Positions 6,037-29,641 of a DNA stretch of 64,000 bases are shown here, one piece after another (the stretch's first letter is position 1; every line of letters begins with the position of its first letter). The position numbers and the translations under genes are program-made. A model generated the notes under the pieces. The model did no database searches, was not told where the DNA came from, and saw only the letters and a program-made list of their open reading frames with translations. The DNA comes from an uncultured Alphaproteobacteria bacterium. Lineage in GTDB: Bacteria > Pseudomonadota > Alphaproteobacteria > HIMB59. The stretch lies in contig CABYRL010000005.1 in NCBI GenBank assembly GCA_902521465.1, positions 1 through 64,000 of the forward strand, written 5' to 3'.

Positions 6037-7788
6037 ATGACCGAGAAATTGCCGAATTGGAATTTAGGAGATTTTTATTCTTCTATCAAAGATGAAGGAA
6101 TAGATCTTGATATCGAAAAATATAGAAATTTCTCTAAATCTTTCAACAAAAAATACAAAGGTCAATTAGTTAATCAAGCTCAAAACCTCGAAAGCATCAT
6201 AAAAGAGTATGAAGACGGTAATGAACTTGGTGACAAGCTTGGCAATTTTGCTTTTTTGATATACGCAACAAATATGAACGACCAAGAGACGGTTCAATTT
6301 TATCAAGGTATAAATGAAAAACTTACAGAGATATCATCAAACTTGATTTTTTTTACAAATGAAATAAATGCTACAAACGACTCAGAATTTGAAAATTTTT
6401 TATCAAATGCTGGCAAATATAAAAATTGGTTAACCAACATCCGTCGATATAAACAACATCAACTTGATGAAAAGAGTGAGATGATTTTCCTTGATAAGAA
6501 TTTAACCTCTAACTCTTCATGGGTGAGATTCTTTGAAGAACAAATAAATGATTTAAAATTTAAAATCGATGATAAATATTTAAATAGTTCAGAAGCTTTA
6601 AATTTATTATCTGATCATAAATCAACAACCAGAAAAAAAGCAGCAAAAAGTATTGAAGATGTTTTTAAATCGAATGTAAAAACTTTTTCTTTTATTACAA
6701 ACACTCTCGCAAAAGATAAAATCACTAATGATAAGTGGAGAAAATACAAATCTCCAATAGACTCAAGAAATTTAGCGAATAATGTTGAAAATGAAGTTGT
6801 CGAGGCACTAACTAAAAGTGTCACTTCAAATTACAAGAATATCTCACATCGATACTATAAAATTAAGGCCAAACTTTTTAATCAAGAAAAACTTAATTAT
6901 TGGGATAGAAATGCACCTTATCCTGACTCACCTAATAAAAAGATAAATTGGTCTGAGGCAAAAGATATTGTAATCCGCTCATATGCTAACTTTGATAAAA
7001 GTTTTGAAGATATTGTATTATTATTTTTTAATAACAGTTGGATTGATGCAGAACTAAAATCAGGTAAATCTCCAGGAGCATTTGCAGCTTCTACAATTCC
7101 CTCAATACACCCTTACATTTTGACAAACTTCCACGGTAAAACAAGAGATGTAATGACATTAGCTCATGAACTTGGACATGGATGTCACCAATATTTGTCT
7201 GCTAAACAAGGTTTGCTGTTATCCAGCACTCCACTTACTCTAGCAGAGACTGCAAGTGTCTTTGGAGAGATGATGACTTTTCGAACATTACTCGAAGATA
7301 GTGATAAGAGTGCCAGAAAATATCTTTTAGCATCAAAAATAGAAGACATGATTAACACTGTTGTCAGGCAAATATCATTTTTTGAATTTGAAAAGTTAGT
7401 TCACAATGAGAGAAAAAAAGGAGAGCTATCATCTGATCAACTTTGTGATTTTTGGATGAAAACACAATCTGAAAGTCTTGGGCCTAATATTGAATTAACA
7501 GATGGATATAGATATTTTTGGACATACATACCTCATTTTATTCATACTCCCTTTTATGTATATGCTTATGCTTTTGGAGATTGTTTAGTAAACATTTTGA
7601 TTCAACTTTATGATGAGGACCTTCCAAATTTTAAGGAAAGTTACATTAGTCTTTTAAAAAGTGGTGGCTCGAAACACTATAGTGAAGTTTTAAAACCATT
7701 TAATGTGGATCTAAAACAAAAAAACAGTTGGGAAAAAGGCCTCTCAATGATTTCTGGTCTAATAGATGAGTTTGAAAAAAGTCTTTAG
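6037..7788 (+). CDS. M3 family oligoendopeptidase (PepF-like)
   Basis: 583 aa; zinc motif LAHELGHGCHQ. Confidence 0.93.
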   Translation: MTEKLPNWNLGDFYSSIKDEGIDLDIEKYRNFSKSFNKKYKGQLVNQAQNLESIIKEYEDGNELGDKLGNFAFLIYATNMNDQETVQFYQGINEKLTEISSNLIFFTNEINATNDSEFENFLSNAGKYKNWLTNIRRYKQHQLDEKSEMIFLDKNLTSNSSWVRFFEEQINDLKFKIDDKYLNSSEALNLLSDHKSTTRKKAAKSIEDVFKSNVKTFSFITNTLAKDKITNDKWRKYKSPIDSRNLANNVENEVVEALTKSVTSNYKNISHRYYKIKAKLFNQEKLNYWDRNAPYPDSPNKKINWSEAKDIVIRSYANFDKSFEDIVLLFFNNSWIDAELKSGKSPGAFAASTIPSIHPYILTNFHGKTRDVMTLAHELGHGCHQYLSAKQGLLLSSTPLTLAETASVFGEMMTFRTLLEDSDKSARKYLLASKIEDMINTVVRQISFFEFEKLVHNERKKGELSSDQLCDFWMKTQSESLGPNIELTDGYRYFWTYIPHFIHTPFYVYAYAFGDCLVNILIQLYDEDLPNFKESYISLLKSGGSKHYSEVLKPFNVDLKQKNSWEKGLSMISGLIDEFEKSL

Positions 7789-22590: not shown

Positions 22591-22641
22591 GTCATTTATT
22601 ATTGATTTCCTTTTATAAAATTGTTTATCATTATAAGTGTG

Positions 22642-23082
22642 AAAAAAATTCTCAAATATTCATTTATTATTATTTTTAGTTTTAACTTAAATTTATTCTC
22701 CGGTCCTTTTACAGATGAGTTCGCTAAATGCATTGTGATGAAAACAACAACTCAAGAAAAAACTGATTTAGTTAGATGGATATATGTGACAATGTCATTT
22801 CACCCTCAACTTATGGATTTGTCTAACTTAACAGCTGATGATGTTGAAATGGTGAACATAAGAGTAGCTGACTACATGACCAATGTTTTTGCTTATAAGT
22901 GCAATGAAGAGTTAAATATGGCTATTGATTATGAGGGCGAAGAAAGTGTGTATTATGCATTTGAACTCTTGGGAGAAATAGCAATGACAGAGTTAATGGA
23001 AGATCAAGGTGTTAGCGCTGCAAGTGAGCTATTTATTGACTATATAGATGTGTCAATTTTCGAACAAATACTAAACTATTAA
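22642..23082 (+). CDS. Secreted hypothetical protein
   Basis: N-terminal hydrophobic signal-like segment; no family recognised. Confidence 0.5.
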   Translation, partial: KKILKYSFIIIFSFNLNLFSGPFTDEFAKCIVMKTTTQEKTDLVRWIYVTMSFHPQLMDLSNLTADDVEMVNIRVADYMTNVFAYKCNEELNMAIDYEGEESVYYAFELLGEIAMTELMEDQGVSAASELFIDYIDVSIFEQILNY

Positions 23083-23116
23083 CTAATAAAACCATCTTAA
23101 AGAAATTAAACTTATG

Positions 23117-23163
23117 TGGTGCCGCCGAGAAGAATTGAACTTCCGACCCCACCCTTACAAAGG
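23117..23163 (-). pseudogene. tRNA-Thr 3'-half remnant (displaced att copy)
   Basis: TGGTGCCGCCGAGAAGAATTGAACTTCCGACCCCACCCTTACaAAGG matches 27933-27979 of the intact tRNA-Thr with one mismatch, then diverges just past the anticodon loop. Confidence 0.9.
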
Positions 23164-23179
23164 ATATTATCAATGAAAA

Positions 23180-23253
23180 ATACACTGCAAAACAACAATT
23201 ATAAATTCAAAAATTACTAAATTTTGCTTTGCAGTGTACCCAAAAGTGTATCC
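23180..23253. repeat. Arm-like repeats next to the tRNA-Thr 3'-half remnant
   Basis: TACACTGCAAAACAA / TTTTGCTTTGCAGTGTA inverted repeat followed by AGTGTACCCAAAAGTGTATCC direct repeats. Confidence 0.6.
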
Positions 23254-23261
23254 AACAAAAT

Positions 23262-23447
23262 TTATTTTTTAATTGTCCATCCTTGTTTTTGTAGAGCTTT
23301 AATTAATATTTCTAATCTATCATCTCTGAACATTTCTGGTTTTATTTCAGTGAGAAAAATATTTTTTAAACCTGTGTCTTTCTCTCTTTGTCTAATATAG
23401 TCCTCTTTAGACTTAACCTTATAGATTTTAATTTCTTGTTTTGCCAT
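23262..23447 (-). CDS. Small hypothetical protein
   Basis: 61 aa from internal MAKQEIKIYKVK start with RBS (aggagaataacaATG); imperfect hairpin in the 5' leader (about 23472-23505). Confidence 0.55.
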   Translation of the reverse strand: MAKQEIKIYKVKSKEDYIRQREKDTGLKNIFLTEIKPEMFRDDRLEILIKALQKQGWTIKK

Positions 23448-23723
23448 TGTTATTCTCCTTTCGGTCAAACAAGGCAACTAAAATGGAAGGGACCGTTTTA
23501 GCTGCATTTATATAGCACTCGCAATAGGTTCAAATCAGTGCTTAAACAAAATTATAATTTAATCAAAATATTGTAAATACAAATTATATCTCTCATCTCA
23601 TAAGAGTATGGAATTCGCATCCTGAGTTATATTAGGTTCTTTATTGGATTAATTTATTAAATAAATGTATTTTTCATATGTTAAATTTTAATAACTAATA
23701 GATTCTAATATGTACAAAAAACT

Positions 23724-24911
23724 ATGAATTTCATTGATTTATTTTGTGGCTGTGGAGGTCTGACAGAAGGATTTATAAAAGAAAACTATAAACCTCTTCT
23801 TTTATCAGATAATGATCCATATAGTATGTTAACATCAGAAAATAGACTGACAAGTCTAGGCTTTAATAAAAGCTTAGTTGGAAAAATTTGTAAAAAAGCT
23901 GACTTAACAAATAAAAAAAATATACCTAATTTATTGTCTAATATCGATAATAAATTAGAAATAGATGTTTTAGTCGCTGGTATTCCTTGTCAAGCCTATT
24001 CTAGTGTAGGAAGAGCTCAAGATGCCGACTCCATGAAGAATGATAAAAGAAATTATCTCTACAAATCATTAATCAATTTTTTAAATATATTAAAACCAAA
24101 TATTGTTTTAATTGAAAATGTATCGGGTATGTTATCTGCAAGGCCCAAAGATGCCTTAATAATTAAAGATATTTTCAATCAATTAGAAAAATCTGGATAT
24201 AACGTTCATAGAGAGAAAAAAGATATTTTATTGAATTCTTTAGAATATGGAGTTCCCCAGGTAAGAAAAAGAGTTATTATTTTTGGTGTAAAAAAATCTC
24301 TAAGAATAAATCCCGTATATTTCTATGAAAAACTTCAGAAAACACATTATGAACCTAATAATAAGAAAAAAGGATTAAAAAAATTTATATCAGTTAATGA
24401 AGCTATAGGAGACTTACCTAAGATTAAGCCAGGAAAAGGTAAGGAGTTTTATGAATTTTTTAAACCAAAAATCAATAGATATTTGAAAGAAATTAGAAAA
24501 AAAGGTTACAGATATCTTCATAATCATACCTGTAGGTCTCACAATGAAAAAGACAAATTACGATATTTTTATTTATCTAAAAATAATTGGCAATTAAAAG
24601 ATTTACAGCATAAATATCCAGAATTAATTCACCATGATCCTAAACATTTTGGCAATAGGTATACAGTACAAGCAGGTCATCTTCCAGGCAGAACAGTAGT
24701 ATCTCATCTTTATAAAGATGGAAATTTATTCATTCACCCTGACTATAAACAAACTAGAACTTTTACAGTTCGAGAAGCAGCAAGGATTCAATCATTTCCT
24801 GACGATTTTATTTTTTCAGGATCTAGAACTCAACAGTTCAAACAAGTGGGAAATGCAGTACCTGTTTTACTTGCAAAGGCTTTAGCAAAAACTATTAAAA
24901 TTCTTAGATGA
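23724..24911 (+). CDS. DNA (cytosine-5-)-methyltransferase
   Basis: 395 aa; FIDLFCGCGGLTEGF, GIPCQAYSSVGRAQD, ENVSGM, YGVPQVRKRVIIFG, TVREAARIQSFPDDF, QVGNAVP. Confidence 0.96.
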   Translation: MNFIDLFCGCGGLTEGFIKENYKPLLLSDNDPYSMLTSENRLTSLGFNKSLVGKICKKADLTNKKNIPNLLSNIDNKLEIDVLVAGIPCQAYSSVGRAQDADSMKNDKRNYLYKSLINFLNILKPNIVLIENVSGMLSARPKDALIIKDIFNQLEKSGYNVHREKKDILLNSLEYGVPQVRKRVIIFGVKKSLRINPVYFYEKLQKTHYEPNNKKKGLKKFISVNEAIGDLPKIKPGKGKEFYEFFKPKINRYLKEIRKKGYRYLHNHTCRSHNEKDKLRYFYLSKNNWQLKDLQHKYPELIHHDPKHFGNRYTVQAGHLPGRTVVSHLYKDGNLFIHPDYKQTRTFTVREAARIQSFPDDFIFSGSRTQQFKQVGNAVPVLLAKALAKTIKILR

Positions 24912-26341
24912 TATTTTTTTCTATACCCTCAGTTAATCAACCGAAACCAGAATTATTATTTGGAAATGATGATCATTATGGATTTATTAAAACTTTAATA
25001 GGAGAGGAATATAAAAGAGAAAAAATAAAGCTCCTATGTAAAAAATATTACGATAAGCCAACAGATAAATATTGGGACCAAATAATTACTTATGCAAATT
25101 TTTTAGCTTTTAAAAAATTAAATGAAAAAAAACAATTTCAAGATATACCGATTCTCTCCCTGGTATCTGAGGAGTACGATAAAAATAATGATTTACCTGC
25201 TAAAATATTATTTGATTATTTTTTATGTCAGTGGCAGTACCCTCATCCTATAAATACAACTCAAAAAATTAAAGAAAAAGGTGTTGAATTATCAATAGAT
25301 GAACTTAGGCGTTTTCAAATATCTAAACCTTATAGTTCAATATTAAATATATTATTAAATTTATATATAAAAGATCCTAGTCAATCTTACTTATCAAATG
25401 ATGAATTTTATTGGTTAGGTTTAGAATTTTATAAAAGTAAGGGAGGTATTTTTCAAAAAAACAACATTCATAATTGTACAGATAAAATATTTAAAATAAG
25501 AAAATCAGGTGGGTGGAAAGGGTATAATGAGCTAGTAAATAAAGAAATACCTGTAAAAACTCATTTATCTTATCCTAAAGGCTTCTTGAGAAACTCTATT
25601 TTATTAAGTGATGAAAAAAATTTATATCCAAATATCAGTAATTTATTTATCGGCTTTAATTTATATGCCTCAAAAAATATAAAAATAGTGAAAAAAATAA
25701 TTTCTGAAACAGATAAGACAAAGTTTGAATGGGAAAGAAACAGAAATCCTCGGGATGATAGTCTTGTTTATGAATACTCTAATTATCTTTATTCTGCTGA
25801 AAGGATAAATAAATGGCTTTCAAATATTGACATTTATCCTCAACACAAAACTCTTTTTGATAACATACCTAATTTTGATAGAGAATTTGATGAGGAGGAA
25901 TACAAAAATTTAAGAATTGAAAGCCAATTAAAAAGAATTTCCGTATTAGATAAAGAGAGAATTACTAGATTTAGGACAGAGCAAAATTATTTAAGAACTT
26001 ATTTATTTTCAAACTCAGATCGAGGGACTTGTGCTATTTGTCATAATATTTACCCCGCAAAGTTTATGACATGTGCTCATATAAAGAAAAGAACTTTTTG
26101 CTCTGATATTGAAATGAGAGATAAAAATGTAGTAATGCCAGCATGTAATTTTGGCTGTGATAGTTTATTTGAAGAAGGGTATTTAATCGTTAAAGAGGGT
26201 ATAATTACAAATAATATTAAAGATAAGCTCATCACTAGTGATTTATCTTTGTATTTAGATAAAATAATTGGAAAAAGATGCTTATCTTGGAATCAAGACT
26301 CAAAAAAATACTTTAAATTCCATGAAAACAAACAAAAATAA
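24908..26341 (+). CDS. Putative type II restriction endonuclease with C-terminal HNH-like domain
   Basis: 477 aa; CAICHNIYPAKFMTCAHIKKRTFCSDIEMRDKNVVMPACNFGCDSLFEEGYL; sandwiched between two C5-MTases. Confidence 0.75.
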   Translation: MIFFSIPSVNQPKPELLFGNDDHYGFIKTLIGEEYKREKIKLLCKKYYDKPTDKYWDQIITYANFLAFKKLNEKKQFQDIPILSLVSEEYDKNNDLPAKILFDYFLCQWQYPHPINTTQKIKEKGVELSIDELRRFQISKPYSSILNILLNLYIKDPSQSYLSNDEFYWLGLEFYKSKGGIFQKNNIHNCTDKIFKIRKSGGWKGYNELVNKEIPVKTHLSYPKGFLRNSILLSDEKNLYPNISNLFIGFNLYASKNIKIVKKIISETDKTKFEWERNRNPRDDSLVYEYSNYLYSAERINKWLSNIDIYPQHKTLFDNIPNFDREFDEEEYKNLRIESQLKRISVLDKERITRFRTEQNYLRTYLFSNSDRGTCAICHNIYPAKFMTCAHIKKRTFCSDIEMRDKNVVMPACNFGCDSLFEEGYLIVKEGIITNNIKDKLITSDLSLYLDKIIGKRCLSWNQDSKKYFKFHENKQK

Positions 26342-27488
26342 TTTTATTGATTTATTTTGTGGGGCAGGAGGACTGTCACTTGGCTTTGAAAGAGCAGGCT
26401 ATGAGTGTGTTGGTGCAATTGATAATTCTAAGGCCTGTATAGATACACATAAATTAAATTTTCCTAATTGCATATCCATTAATTCTGATATTTCAGATAT
26501 TACACCAAAAAAATTCAGCGATATAATAAAAAATAAAAAAATTGATTTGATTGTTGGAGGGCCACCATGTCCTACTTTTTCAACAATAGGTCATGCAAAA
26601 ATAAAATCAATTAAAACTAAGAATAATTCAAGTTTTACATTATTTGATGATGAGAGAAATTTTTTATTTAAAAAGTATTTTGACTATATTGAATACTTCC
26701 AACCAAATTTTTTTGTTATGGAAAATGTTCCAAATTTTATGACAAAATATCAAGGCAGTATATTCAAACAAACCAAAAATAAAATTGAAGAATTAGGATA
26801 TCAAATTTTAAATGAAAATAATTTATTATTTAATGCTGCAGATTATGGTGTGCCTCAAACAAGAAAAAGAATGATAATAATAGGAACTAAACAAAAAGAC
26901 CTAAAATACCAAGTCCCGAAGATTAAAAATTTTCCTGATGATGATCTTTTTTCTAAAGGAAAAAAATATATCACTGTTAAAGATGCAATAGATGACTTGC
27001 CAAAAATAACTGATAATTGGAGAGTCGATGAATGTGCTTATTCAAAATCAAAAAATTTAAATAATTATCAAAAATTAATGAGAAAAAATACAAATGGAAC
27101 AGTGAAAAATAATATTTGTAGAATGACCAATGATAGGGCAAAAAAAGTTTTTAGACATATGAGCCAAGGAAGTAAATATATGGATTTACCAAAACAAATA
27201 AGAAATATTTTACCCTTTAGAGAGGATATTTTTCATGACCGTTTAAAAAGATTGGTAAATAACAAACCATCTTGGACAGTTATTGCACACATAGGTATGG
27301 ATGGTTATATGTACATTCATCCAACTGAAACAAGAACTCTGTCAGTAAGAGAGGCAGCAAGGCTACAATCATTTCCAGATGATTTTGTTTTTTTGGGAAC
27401 TCAGATGCAAACTTATCATCAAGTTGGTAATGCAGTCCCTGTAATTTTGGCTGAAGAAATAGCAAGATCAATAAAAAACACAGCTTAA
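26322..27488 (+). CDS. DNA (cytosine-5-)-methyltransferase
   Basis: NFIDLFCGAGGLSLGFERAG, GGPPCPTFSTIGHA, ENVPNF, YGVPQTRKRMIIIG, SVREAARLQSFPDDF, QVGNAVP; start at internal ATG (MKTNKNN) overlapping the upstream stop. Confidence 0.96.
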   Translation: MKTNKNNFIDLFCGAGGLSLGFERAGYECVGAIDNSKACIDTHKLNFPNCISINSDISDITPKKFSDIIKNKKIDLIVGGPPCPTFSTIGHAKIKSIKTKNNSSFTLFDDERNFLFKKYFDYIEYFQPNFFVMENVPNFMTKYQGSIFKQTKNKIEELGYQILNENNLLFNAADYGVPQTRKRMIIIGTKQKDLKYQVPKIKNFPDDDLFSKGKKYITVKDAIDDLPKITDNWRVDECAYSKSKNLNNYQKLMRKNTNGTVKNNICRMTNDRAKKVFRHMSQGSKYMDLPKQIRNILPFREDIFHDRLKRLVNNKPSWTVIAHIGMDGYMYIHPTETRTLSVREAARLQSFPDDFVFLGTQMQTYHQVGNAVPVILAEEIARSIKNTA

Positions 27489-27901
27489 TTTAAAAACTTA
27501 CTAATAATTTTTTTATATCTGCTGTCCTCATGTATTTTAATTACTTCATTTATTATTAGTATCTCGAGGCACTCCTCTAACATTTCATTACTAGGTTCTT
27601 TACCAAAAATTTTGACAAAATATTTTTCTCTTATTACCCTTCTTAATTCTTCTAATGGGCAGTATTCGCACCACATTTTATCTTTCATTACTTCGATATT
27701 TAATTTTGATTGAAAAATACTCATTTCACCAAATTTCTGCAAAATAGTTTTTAATTCCTCGTCACTTATATAAGCTAAGTTTTTGATTTTATAATCGAAG
27801 ACCTCTTTTAGTCCTTCATATTTGTATATATCGTGTAGATAGCCAAGTAAGTGATCATAATAATTATATTTCCATTCTTCATATTCAAATAATTTCATCA
27901 T
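27485..27901 (-). CDS. Hypothetical protein
   Basis: 138 aa, convergent with the second MTase, no family recognised. Confidence 0.5.
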   Translation of the reverse strand: MMKLFEYEEWKYNYYDHLLGYLHDIYKYEGLKEVFDYKIKNLAYISDEELKTILQKFGEMSIFQSKLNIEVMKDKMWCEYCPLEELRRVIREKYFVKIFGKEPSNEMLEECLEILIINEVIKIHEDSRYKKIISKFLN

Positions 27902-27932
27902 TTACTATATTTAATTAAAATCTTTTATAATT

Positions 27933-28007
27933 TGGTGCCGCCGAGAAGAATTGAACTTCCGACCCCACCCTTACCAAGGGTGTGCTCTACCACTGAGCTA
28001 CGGCGGC
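27933..28007 (-). tRNA. tRNA-Thr(GGT)
   Basis: rc GCCGCCGTAGCTCAGTGGTAGAGCACACCCTTGGTAAGGGTGGGGTCGGAAGTTCAATTCTTCTCGGCGGCACCA; anticodon loop TTGGTAA; cloverleaf stems and encoded CCA. Confidence 0.97.
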
Positions 28008-28015
28008 ATAACTTA

Positions 28016-28044
28016 TATTTATAGGGATATTTAATAACTCTCAA
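28016..28044 (-). promoter_or_regulatory. Putative promoter for the intact tRNA-Thr
   Basis: TTGAGA (28044-28039) - 17 nt - TAAATA (28021-28016) just upstream of the tRNA 5' end. Confidence 0.5.
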
Positions 28045-28060
28045 GTATTAGATTTTATGA

Positions 28061-28079
28061 AGTGTGCTTAATGTGTGCA
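28061..28079 (+). repeat. Arm-like direct repeat, left end of second Thr insertion
   Basis: AGTGTGCTTAATGTGTGCA. Confidence 0.55.
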
Positions 28080-28080
28080 T

Positions 28081-28527
28081 TTAACTTAAATGGTCTTTGT
28101 AATTTTCAATGTCAGGGTCAAAAGCTCCAAAAGTCAAAAAATTAGCAAATCTGATTGTTCTTAACATTGTTATTTCTGAAAATAATAGATATGCATTACA
28201 GCATATAAATAAAAAAATTATTCCGAACCAAATGAATAAGAGTGCTAAAACATTTACAACAAAAAATAATAAAAAAATTAAAGTTCCAAAAATAAAATGA
28301 TCCTCAAAGATTTGATATATTCTCATGGCGAAATAAAATTCATATTTAAAAATTAGAATTAAATAAGGCTCAATTAAGATATAAAGTTTCCCACTTAATA
28401 AAAAATACCAAAAACCCAATGATATAACTATAGTATATAAAAAAGGAATTAAAAAAAACAAATCAGTTTTTTTTAAATCCCAATACTTATTAATAAATTT
28501 AAAAATATTTAATTTTAATTTGTCCAT
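28081..28527 (-). CDS. Membrane protein, unknown function
   Basis: 148 aa, multiple hydrophobic segments. Confidence 0.55.
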   Translation of the reverse strand: MDKLKLNIFKFINKYWDLKKTDLFFLIPFLYTIVISLGFWYFLLSGKLYILIEPYLILIFKYEFYFAMRIYQIFEDHFIFGTLIFLLFFVVNVLALLFIWFGIIFLFICCNAYLLFSEITMLRTIRFANFLTFGAFDPDIENYKDHLS

Positions 28528-28748
28528 ATTTTACGGATTTTTTTATATATTAAAAACCATATAGAAAGAAATATTACTGATAATATTATTATTTCCTCAT
28601 AGTTTATTCCCCAACTATATAAATGTTCTAAAAAATCAATAAGGGGAGCTCCAATAAAATTGGGCAAGTAAGGAGAAATAAAAACTATAAATAATAAAAT
28701 AATATTTGTTAGAACATATGAAGATACAATAGATAAGAAGATTTTCAT
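28515..28748 (-). CDS. Small membrane protein
   Basis: 77 aa, hydrophobic; overlaps the start of the downstream ORF (operon-like). Confidence 0.5.
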   Translation of the reverse strand: MKIFLSIVSSYVLTNIILLFIVFISPYLPNFIGAPLIDFLEHLYSWGINYEEIIILSVIFLSIWFLIYKKIRKIWTN

Positions 28749-28936
28749 TTCTTTTTATTTTTTTCTCTTCTCCACAGTATGAAAAATAACAATATCAAAG
28801 CTGGTTGTAAAATTACAAAGATTACAATATTAGCTAGTTCATAGCCCATTCCAGTTAAATCGCCTATTACTTCTAAAACCCAGACACACCATTGAAAGAA
28901 ATCATTAATCATTACAAACTCTCACTAAGAGGGTTT

Positions 28937-29242
28937 TCATTTTATACAGTTTGATTTAACTCTCTGAGAACTATTAATGAAATTTTGAGATGGAGTTTGA
29001 TATTTTTGTTGATAAGACATTTCTTTTTCATCAAGTAAATTCATCATAGATCTAATATAACATTCACAAAATGTATTATAATTTCCAATGGTCATCTTGC
29101 TTGCATTAAATTGTTGTTTGTCATTTTTACATTGTTTTATTCCATAATTGATTTGGTCTTCAGTTATAACTGTCTTTGCAATAGAGATATTGGTCGAACT
29201 CAAACTAGGGATTAATAACAATAGTGCTAAGAGTGTTTTCAT
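28937..29242 (-). CDS. Secreted small hypothetical protein
   Basis: 101 aa with signal peptide; conserved-looking Cys pattern. Confidence 0.5.
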   Translation of the reverse strand: MKTLLALLLLIPSLSSTNISIAKTVITEDQINYGIKQCKNDKQQFNASKMTIGNYNTFCECYIRSMMNLLDEKEMSYQQKYQTPSQNFINSSQRVKSNCIK

Positions 29243-29279
29243 ATGAAGTTAAGTCTAATTAAAGATTAATTTTCAGCCA

Positions 29280-29338
29280 ACCAAAATGTGCAGAAAATGA
29301 GCGAAAATTTCTGAAACTTAATGCACACTTTGGTTTGG
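29280..29338. repeat. Inverted arm-like repeat, right end of second Thr insertion
   Basis: GCCAACCAAAATGTGCA ... TGCACACTTTGGTTTGGC (imperfect inverted repeat). Confidence 0.6.
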
Positions 29339-29398
29339 CATTACCCAAAAGAACAAGTTTTTGTCGATTTTTGTTCATTATGGTAAGAAAGTACTCTA

Positions 29399-29436
29399 TT
29401 ACCAAGGGTGTGCTCTACCACTGAGCTACGGCGGCA
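29399..29436 (-). pseudogene. tRNA-Thr 5'-half remnant (displaced att copy)
   Basis: TTACCAAGGGTGTGCTCTACCACTGAGCTACGGCGGCA identical to 27971-28008 of the intact tRNA-Thr. Confidence 0.93.
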
Positions 29437-29455
29437 TTTTTAAAATTATAGACTA

Positions 29456-29641
29456 TTAATACATATTAAAAAACATTATCAAAAGACACCCTGCTGTCAG
29501 GTATTTAGAGATTTCATAAAGAATTTTCCATTTATTATTATTTTGACTCACACGCCATGTAGCAAAAGTAATTGCCAAAAAAACAAATGATACAAACCAC
29601 ATTAAATTAGGGTTTTTTGTTAAATCAATAATAACTGACAT
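29456..29641 (-). CDS. Small membrane protein
   Basis: 61 aa, two hydrophobic stretches. Confidence 0.4.
   Translation of the reverse strand: MSVIIDLTKNPNLMWFVSFVFLAITFATWRVSQNNNKWKILYEISKYLTAGCLLIMFFNMY

Follow-up and report, generated by a model that had tools for sequence, protein, structure and literature searches.

In the usual account of integration at transfer RNA (tRNA) genes, an element enters in one direction, restores the 3' end of the gene and keeps the host promoter. Cargo-carrying elements at tRNA genes are also known from streamlined marine bacteria, i.e., the tycheposons of Prochlorococcus, which encode a tyrosine recombinase. In islands of the Islander type, an intact tRNA gene is accompanied by a displaced fragment on the correct side and in the correct orientation, crossover in the anticodon loop is described, and islands with 5' fragments are known, the Islander survey listing 159 of them versus 3,760 with 3' fragments (PMC4383910). 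The 5' half of a tRNA gene is likewise targeted and restored by pTN3-like integrases, which are archaeal and act, as described, in one fixed polarity (PMC8371274). Small cassettes stacked at tRNA genes, together with partial tRNA repeats, form the additive flexible islands of streamlined marine and freshwater bacteria, i.e., Actinomarinales (PMC7771536) and Methylophilaceae (PMC10872708). In this work, we analyzed a tRNA-Thr(GGT) locus of an uncultured marine alphaproteobacterium of the HIMB59 lineage, located in a stretch of 64,000 nucleotides (nt) of contig CABYRL010000005.1 (contig C5 of the 1.34-Mb genome; this whole stretch is called the window). The locus is a hotspot at which integrative elements cross over within the 7-bp anticodon loop of the tRNA gene, and it shares the above features with the Islander type. 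Unlike there, its 5' and 3' junctions are nearly equal in number and families of element arms occur in both polarities; in the two reports on the flexible islands, no phage arm, two-way insertion or restored-half account is given.

The intact tRNA-Thr(GGT) was called by ARAGORN at 27933-28007 on the minus strand. On the same strand, 4.8 kb to the left, lies the displaced original 3' half (47 nt, 23117-23163), which carries a single mismatch (TTACAAAGG for TTACCAAGG). This sole mismatch of the repeats falls within the anticodon loop of the left copy, whose core (23155-23161) reads TTACAAA. The displaced original 5' half, also on the minus strand, is placed 1.4 kb to the right (29399-29435); it is exact, consists of the core TTACCAA (29399-29405) and 30 further nt, and the repeat continues over two shared flank bases to 29437. 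The two fragments overlap only in TTAC[A/C]AAGG, i.e., the anticodon loop plus 2 bp. The first-pass annotation had described the intact gene, both copies with their distances and their overlap in the same way, and only its 38 nt for the right copy required a trivial correction, as this copy comprises 37 nt of tRNA and 2 nt of flank. Repeats of 37-47 nt inside 6 kb around the gene are not a matter of chance, and the same order (3' half, intact gene, 5' half) is present in two more genomes (L166 and L173). A tandem duplication or an assembly artefact, for which nothing speaks beyond the presence of the repeats, is hardly conceivable and was ruled out, since identical breakpoints were found in many separate assemblies, in which the DNA between them differs.

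The insertion history was reconstructed with the use of related marine genomes, which, judging from their AG- isolate names, are presumably single-cell genomes. In four of them (L038, L041, L045, and L161) one uninterrupted tRNA-Thr lies between the same two flanking genes, and the outer flanks of the window, joined at one tRNA copy, align with these empty sites at approximately 94% identity with 8 gap columns over about 1.6 kb; the first-pass annotation had proposed exactly this comparison. The left chromosomal flank (22621-23116, plus strand) consists of a conserved 153-amino acid (aa) open reading frame (ORF) and a 34-bp spacer adjoining the original 3' end of the tRNA, and in the same four genomes this gene and spacer abut the intact tRNA. 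The right flank (29436-29641, minus strand), containing the original upstream region of the tRNA and a 61-aa ORF, is found directly upstream of the intact gene in the empty genomes and in those with left insertions only. In the latter (L039, L048, L036, L029, L142, and others) the intact tRNA remains on the right chromosomal flank and insertions are present on the 3' side only, whereas in L021 and L156 it remains on the left chromosomal flank, with insertions stacked on the 5' side only (two displaced 5' halves in L021 and three in L156). Insertions on both sides were found in the window, L166, and L173. Since left-only and right-only genomes exist, the left and right insertions are independent. 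In the window the chromosomal flanks lie beyond both displaced halves and the intact gene has neither of them, so the functional gene is composed of two halves supplied by elements. The empty and one-sided genomes thus uphold the proposal of the first-pass annotation that one element restored the 3' half and another the 5' half, and the position of the flanks agrees with its suggestion that the present tRNA is entirely element-derived.

It was shown in this way that the 3' half of the window gene was displaced (new copy, 27933-27970) by a left element, which ends in family D and probably carries restriction-modification genes, and that a right element with a family A end displaced the 5' half (new copy, 27978-28007) and supplied its own upstream region, the 7-nt core (27971-27977) lying between the two new halves. 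We regard this two-insertion history as close to certain. A single 6.2-kb element with a complete tRNA-Thr among its cargo could have split the original gene once, leaving the outer halves as its junctions, and both the whole tRNA-Thr(GGT) genes of related phages (see below) and the overlap of the outer fragments in the core alone would agree with that. This very improbable scenario was ruled out for this genus by the one-sided genomes, in which the intact tRNA sits on the opposite chromosomal flank; moreover, the window tRNA has the host sequence, differing from the phage copy at 20 of 75 positions, and the families of the two ends differ. The displaced halves carry up to four mutations outside the core, while most intact copies are identical in sequence to that of the window.

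Several other arrangements were also observed at this locus. In L153 (G011; tRNA at 6534-6608 in window orientation) the intact tRNA-Thr is turned around with respect to the two chromosomal flanks and has an element-type upstream region, which suggests an inversion at the hotspot. An inverted displaced 3' half is embedded in the stacked 5'-side array of L156 (3272-3316, oriented as the window). In L107 (G034:C4, about 1440-1620) family D and family A ends meet at a TTGGTAA core without any tRNA half, as if a displaced core had been used as a secondary insertion site.

The 7-nt loop TTACCAA forms the start of the displaced 5' halves and the end of most displaced 3' halves; some 3' fragments carry a few more shared bases, and the 65-nt fragment of L036 belongs to an ordinary integrase-bearing insert. 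The target is a 17-bp inverted repeat, whose perfect 7-bp arms are interrupted solely by the anticodon (CACCCTT-ACC-AAGGGTG). Among the 18 host tRNAs examined, arms of this length are present only in tRNA-Thr(GGT) and tRNA-Gly(GCC), which are tied. Among the read anticodons of the 32-35 tRNA matches of the host there were one tRNA-Thr(GGT) and one tRNA-Thr(TGT); the target gene is apparently single-copy. Of 27 junctions with displaced halves, 13 were of the 5' type and 14 of the 3' type.

The element ends, grouped into families by the sequence read from the element end toward the core, were then compared between polarities. Next to family A (CCCAAAAGAACAAGTTTTTGT...), the tRNA half is of the 5' type in the window and L021 and of the 3' type in L027, L029, L166, and L173; the end of the 5'-type L021 cassette is 95-98% identical over 130-165 bp to those of the 3'-type cassettes of L029, L166, and L173. 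For family F, the adjoining half is a 3' one in L027 and a 5' one in L156; a third family, present in L156, adjoins both types of halves. It is thus well supported that elements with the phage-type arms of families A and F have used the target in both orientations. Two conventional element families of fixed opposite polarity might instead share the loop by coincidence, with no two-way integrase being involved. The left insert of the window does end in family D and the right one in family A, which indicates that they come from different systems, with no sign of one integrase behind both, and family D ends are joined to 3' halves only. The joining of families A and F to both halves in relatives, and the occurrence of the attachment site (attP) cores of the phages bearing these arms in both orientations, even between near-identical pairs, make fixed polarity quite unlikely. 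As a side observation, the left inserts of L155 and L033 contain, at the tRNA-proximal end, reading frames similar to the N-terminal part of the L036 integrase, which suggests a loss of most of the integrase gene in some family D elements.

The family A end was found in 18 contigs of the IMG/VR database, and relatives of the integrase added further ones. A representative contig encodes terminase subunits, a primosomal protein, an exonuclease, an endolysin, and a tyrosine integrase; no close cultured relative was present in the phage collection, which gave weak matches only. In the attP of these phages the 7-bp core is located about 80 bp from the stop codon of the integrase gene and the family A arm on the opposite side. 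The distal end of the right cassette in the window (29281-29398) corresponds to this P arm of attP, positions 29281-29393 being 99.1% identical over 113 bp to five phage contigs (L085, L096, L099, L130, and L132). The family F arm belongs to another integrase lineage (45.6% aa identity), represented by L207 and L208. These uncultured marine phages, presumably temperate, appear to aim at the same spot of tRNA-Thr. In two distant integrase relatives (L137 and L138, 44% identity) TTGGTAA adjoins the integrase gene and two copies of TTACCAA are located nearby.

It should be stressed that the attP core reads TTACCAA in some phage contigs and TTGGTAA in others, and that its orientation switches at least four times on the integrase tree (17 distinct contigs). 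The contigs L087 and L088 differ over 752 bp solely in three bases (GGT/ACC), i.e., in the inverted anticodon triplet, and in L207 and L208, which are 99.3% identical over 7.3 kb, the triplet is inverted as well, a few other differences being scattered near attP. On the host side, at position 4786 of L156 (oriented), the family F arm is followed by TTGGTAA and then by a displaced 5' half; TTACCAA is what matched recombination would produce there, and the junction thus has the appearance of a trace left by a wrong-way event with mismatched cores. These observations suggest that the phage enzyme can insert DNA both ways round at the tRNA. If integration were always matched, with the attP triplet inverted by other means (homologous recombination between attP alleles or independent inversion) and the polarity following the allele, the core would be oriented as the matched overlap predicts, and this is the case at most host junctions. 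We consider this reading unlikely, as it explains neither the origin of an inverted triplet with nothing else altered in L087/L088 nor the flipped triplet at the 5' half of L156, the latter being a single case. An integrase tolerating mismatches would account for both the near-identical GGT/ACC phages and the L156 junction.

Tolerance of this kind has precedents. The coupling sequences of Tn916 are a case of overlap heterology. For the CTnDOT and NBU1 integrases, a tolerance of mismatches in the overlap is known (cited in PMC10865867). The phages and cassettes studied here share with these three elements the suggested mismatch tolerance and an overlap differing among element copies; they differ in that the same triplet is always concerned, inverted and at one conserved tRNA loop, and in that their case is known from sequence.

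In the attP of the phages, the 7-bp core is bordered by unrelated sequence on either side and no tRNA half is present; integration of the phage would therefore break the host gene. A whole tRNA-Thr(GGT) is present in all four distinct contigs which reach the appropriate region (L117, L129, L133, and L207). These copies are identical to each other (75/75 positions), the flanks of the three compared diverge, and the distance from the host gene is the one given above. The 3' half of the host tRNA gave no match in viral contigs, and its 5' half gave three matches, all within complete tRNA genes in contigs devoid of the phage arm. The whole phage tRNA-Thr(GGT) fits tRNA-dependent lysogeny, described for phages that have a core of about 7 bp, do not rebuild the tRNA and encode a complete tRNA of matching isotype (Guerrero-Bustamante and Hatfull 2024, PMC10865867). 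The phages related to the cassettes share these features and are, unlike the described ones, uncultured and marine; their core occurs in either orientation, their arm recurs in host cassettes, and their lysogeny at tRNA-Thr is inferred.

The chromosomal inserts are mostly devoid of an integrase, typically 0.9-6 kb long and modular: the end arm is followed, often, by a gene with a shared signal-peptide-like leader, then by the cargo and the tRNA half. Cassettes of the 5' type also possess a conserved upstream module (94-100% identity over about 50-90 bp within one family). In either insert of the window no integrase was found among the ORFs, the sole PF00589 match of the genome lying on another contig, and no packaging gene was recognizable. 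These inserts thus differ from the Islander type in lacking an integrase inside, from tycheposons in lacking a tyrosine recombinase, and from phage satellites resembling phage-inducible chromosomal islands, whose own integrase and packaging-interference genes were not found in them. The left insert, with 4.8 kb, falls within the length range of the Islander type (2-200 kb) and the right one, with 1.4 kb, below it.

Taken as a whole, the observations are probably best explained by two-sided insertion of elements, two-way use of the palindromic loop, a mismatch-tolerant phage integrase and cassettes moved in trans. An integrase tolerating a central 3-bp mismatch would insert either way at the symmetrical anticodon stem-loop, and a wrong-way event would leave mismatched overlap DNA, which could be resolved with the triplet inverted. 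The phages would complement the broken host gene with their own whole tRNA-Thr(GGT), while the cassettes without an integrase, keeping the phage arm and bringing a tRNA half, could integrate with no loss of the tRNA. Presumably, they are moved in trans by the phage integrase, which is our preferred reading, and a two-way, mismatch-tolerant integrase is the mechanism best supported by these patterns. Several points weigh against this explanation. The mismatch tolerance is read from footprints, i.e., the inverted attP triplets and one flipped host junction. Searches of 162 genomes of the order and of the genome collection with the integrase protein, and a search by junction pattern, revealed neither a lysogen nor a phage integrase; the first of these searches lacked a positive control. 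Family D and B ends were not found by exact pattern in viral contigs, in which family F was, and no circular form of a cassette was seen. Furthermore, copies of one lyase gene with about 95% identity over approximately 955 bp are present in cassettes which are opposite in polarity and differ in their ends (L037 and L166 on the right, L173 on the left), and the presence of the same cargo in cassettes with different ends means that homologous recombination also shuffles the cargo.

This shared lyase gene, the shared leader regions and the lack of an integrase in most inserts would equally be expected if the cassettes were relics spread by transformation and homologous recombination, with their tRNA halves as fossils. 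We treat this as a possibility, albeit a doubtful one, since the precise crossovers at the core, the several stacked and unmutated displaced halves and the 99% match to the phage arm suggest fairly recent site-specific events.

As to the content of the left insert, its distal, family D end (23164-23330) shows 93-96% identity to the inserts of L024 and L155 over their first 380-414 bp. It is adjoined by a conserved 71-aa ORF (23262-23477, minus strand), which recurs at the same end in L024, L155, L033, and L107; these proteins of 61-71 aa have no family match and may be an accessory factor of the family D element. This ORF is followed on the plus strand by a C5 cytosine DNA methyltransferase (23724-24911; PF00145, E-value 4.5e-62; PADLOC MTase_II), a 477-aa protein (24908-26341) and a second C5 cytosine DNA methyltransferase (26268-27488; PF00145, E-value 1.4e-73; PADLOC MTase_II). 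The 477-aa ORF gave no match in Pfam, NCBIfam, PADLOC or PDB; based on its HNH-like Cys/His motif and its position between the two methyltransferases, it is a candidate restriction endonuclease, and the three genes probably constitute a restriction-modification system. A 138-aa ORF without a family match lies next to it (27485-27901, minus strand).

In the right cassette, whose features listed here are on the minus strand, the element-supplied upstream region (28008-28062) lies next to the tRNA; it matches the tRNA-proximal end of the L021 cassette over 58 bp at 84% identity and is related to those of L022, L153, and L172. Its conservation among cassettes suggests that it may act as the promoter of the tRNA; promoter scans of this AT-rich DNA gave about the level of shuffled sequences and were uninformative. 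The cargo consists of two small membrane-protein-like ORFs of 148 and 77 aa (28081-28748), with no family match above the cut-off, and of a 101-aa ORF (28937-29242), whose signal-peptide-like start MKTLLALLLLIPSLS is common to other cassettes. Among the cargo of other cassettes there are a HaeIII-like pair (L155), a restriction-helicase protein (L028) and a GajB-like helicase (L156), and secreted polysaccharide/alginate lyases with a common leader peptide are frequent beside defence genes (L037, L156, L166, and L173). It is also worth mentioning that the repeat ACCAGCTGAGCTAATCCCCC of the Methylophilaceae island fGI-2, reported as the last 20 bp of tRNA-Lys (PMC10872708), reads as the reverse complement of the 5' end of the tRNA, and this island may be a 5'-type array too.

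What the analysis adds to the first-pass annotation is that one palindromic anticodon stem-loop is apparently used in both directions, the phage attP having a triplet that inverts. A keyword search of the literature found no report of two-way insertion at tRNA genes, which is weak evidence of novelty. At this gene both directions are used about equally, and the phage arms tie the polarity to an attP with an inverting anticodon triplet. This raises the question of how far a mismatch in the overlap is tolerated by a tRNA-targeting integrase, and whether the symmetry of the loop sets the polarity of insertion. Host tRNA genes, including their upstream regions, may be wholly rebuilt by successive elements carrying defence and other cargo. 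The results also suggest that tRNA-dependent lysogeny occurs in phages of streamlined ocean bacteria, and they show a route by which restriction-modification systems, helicase-type defence genes, and polysaccharide lyases are stacked in small genomes.

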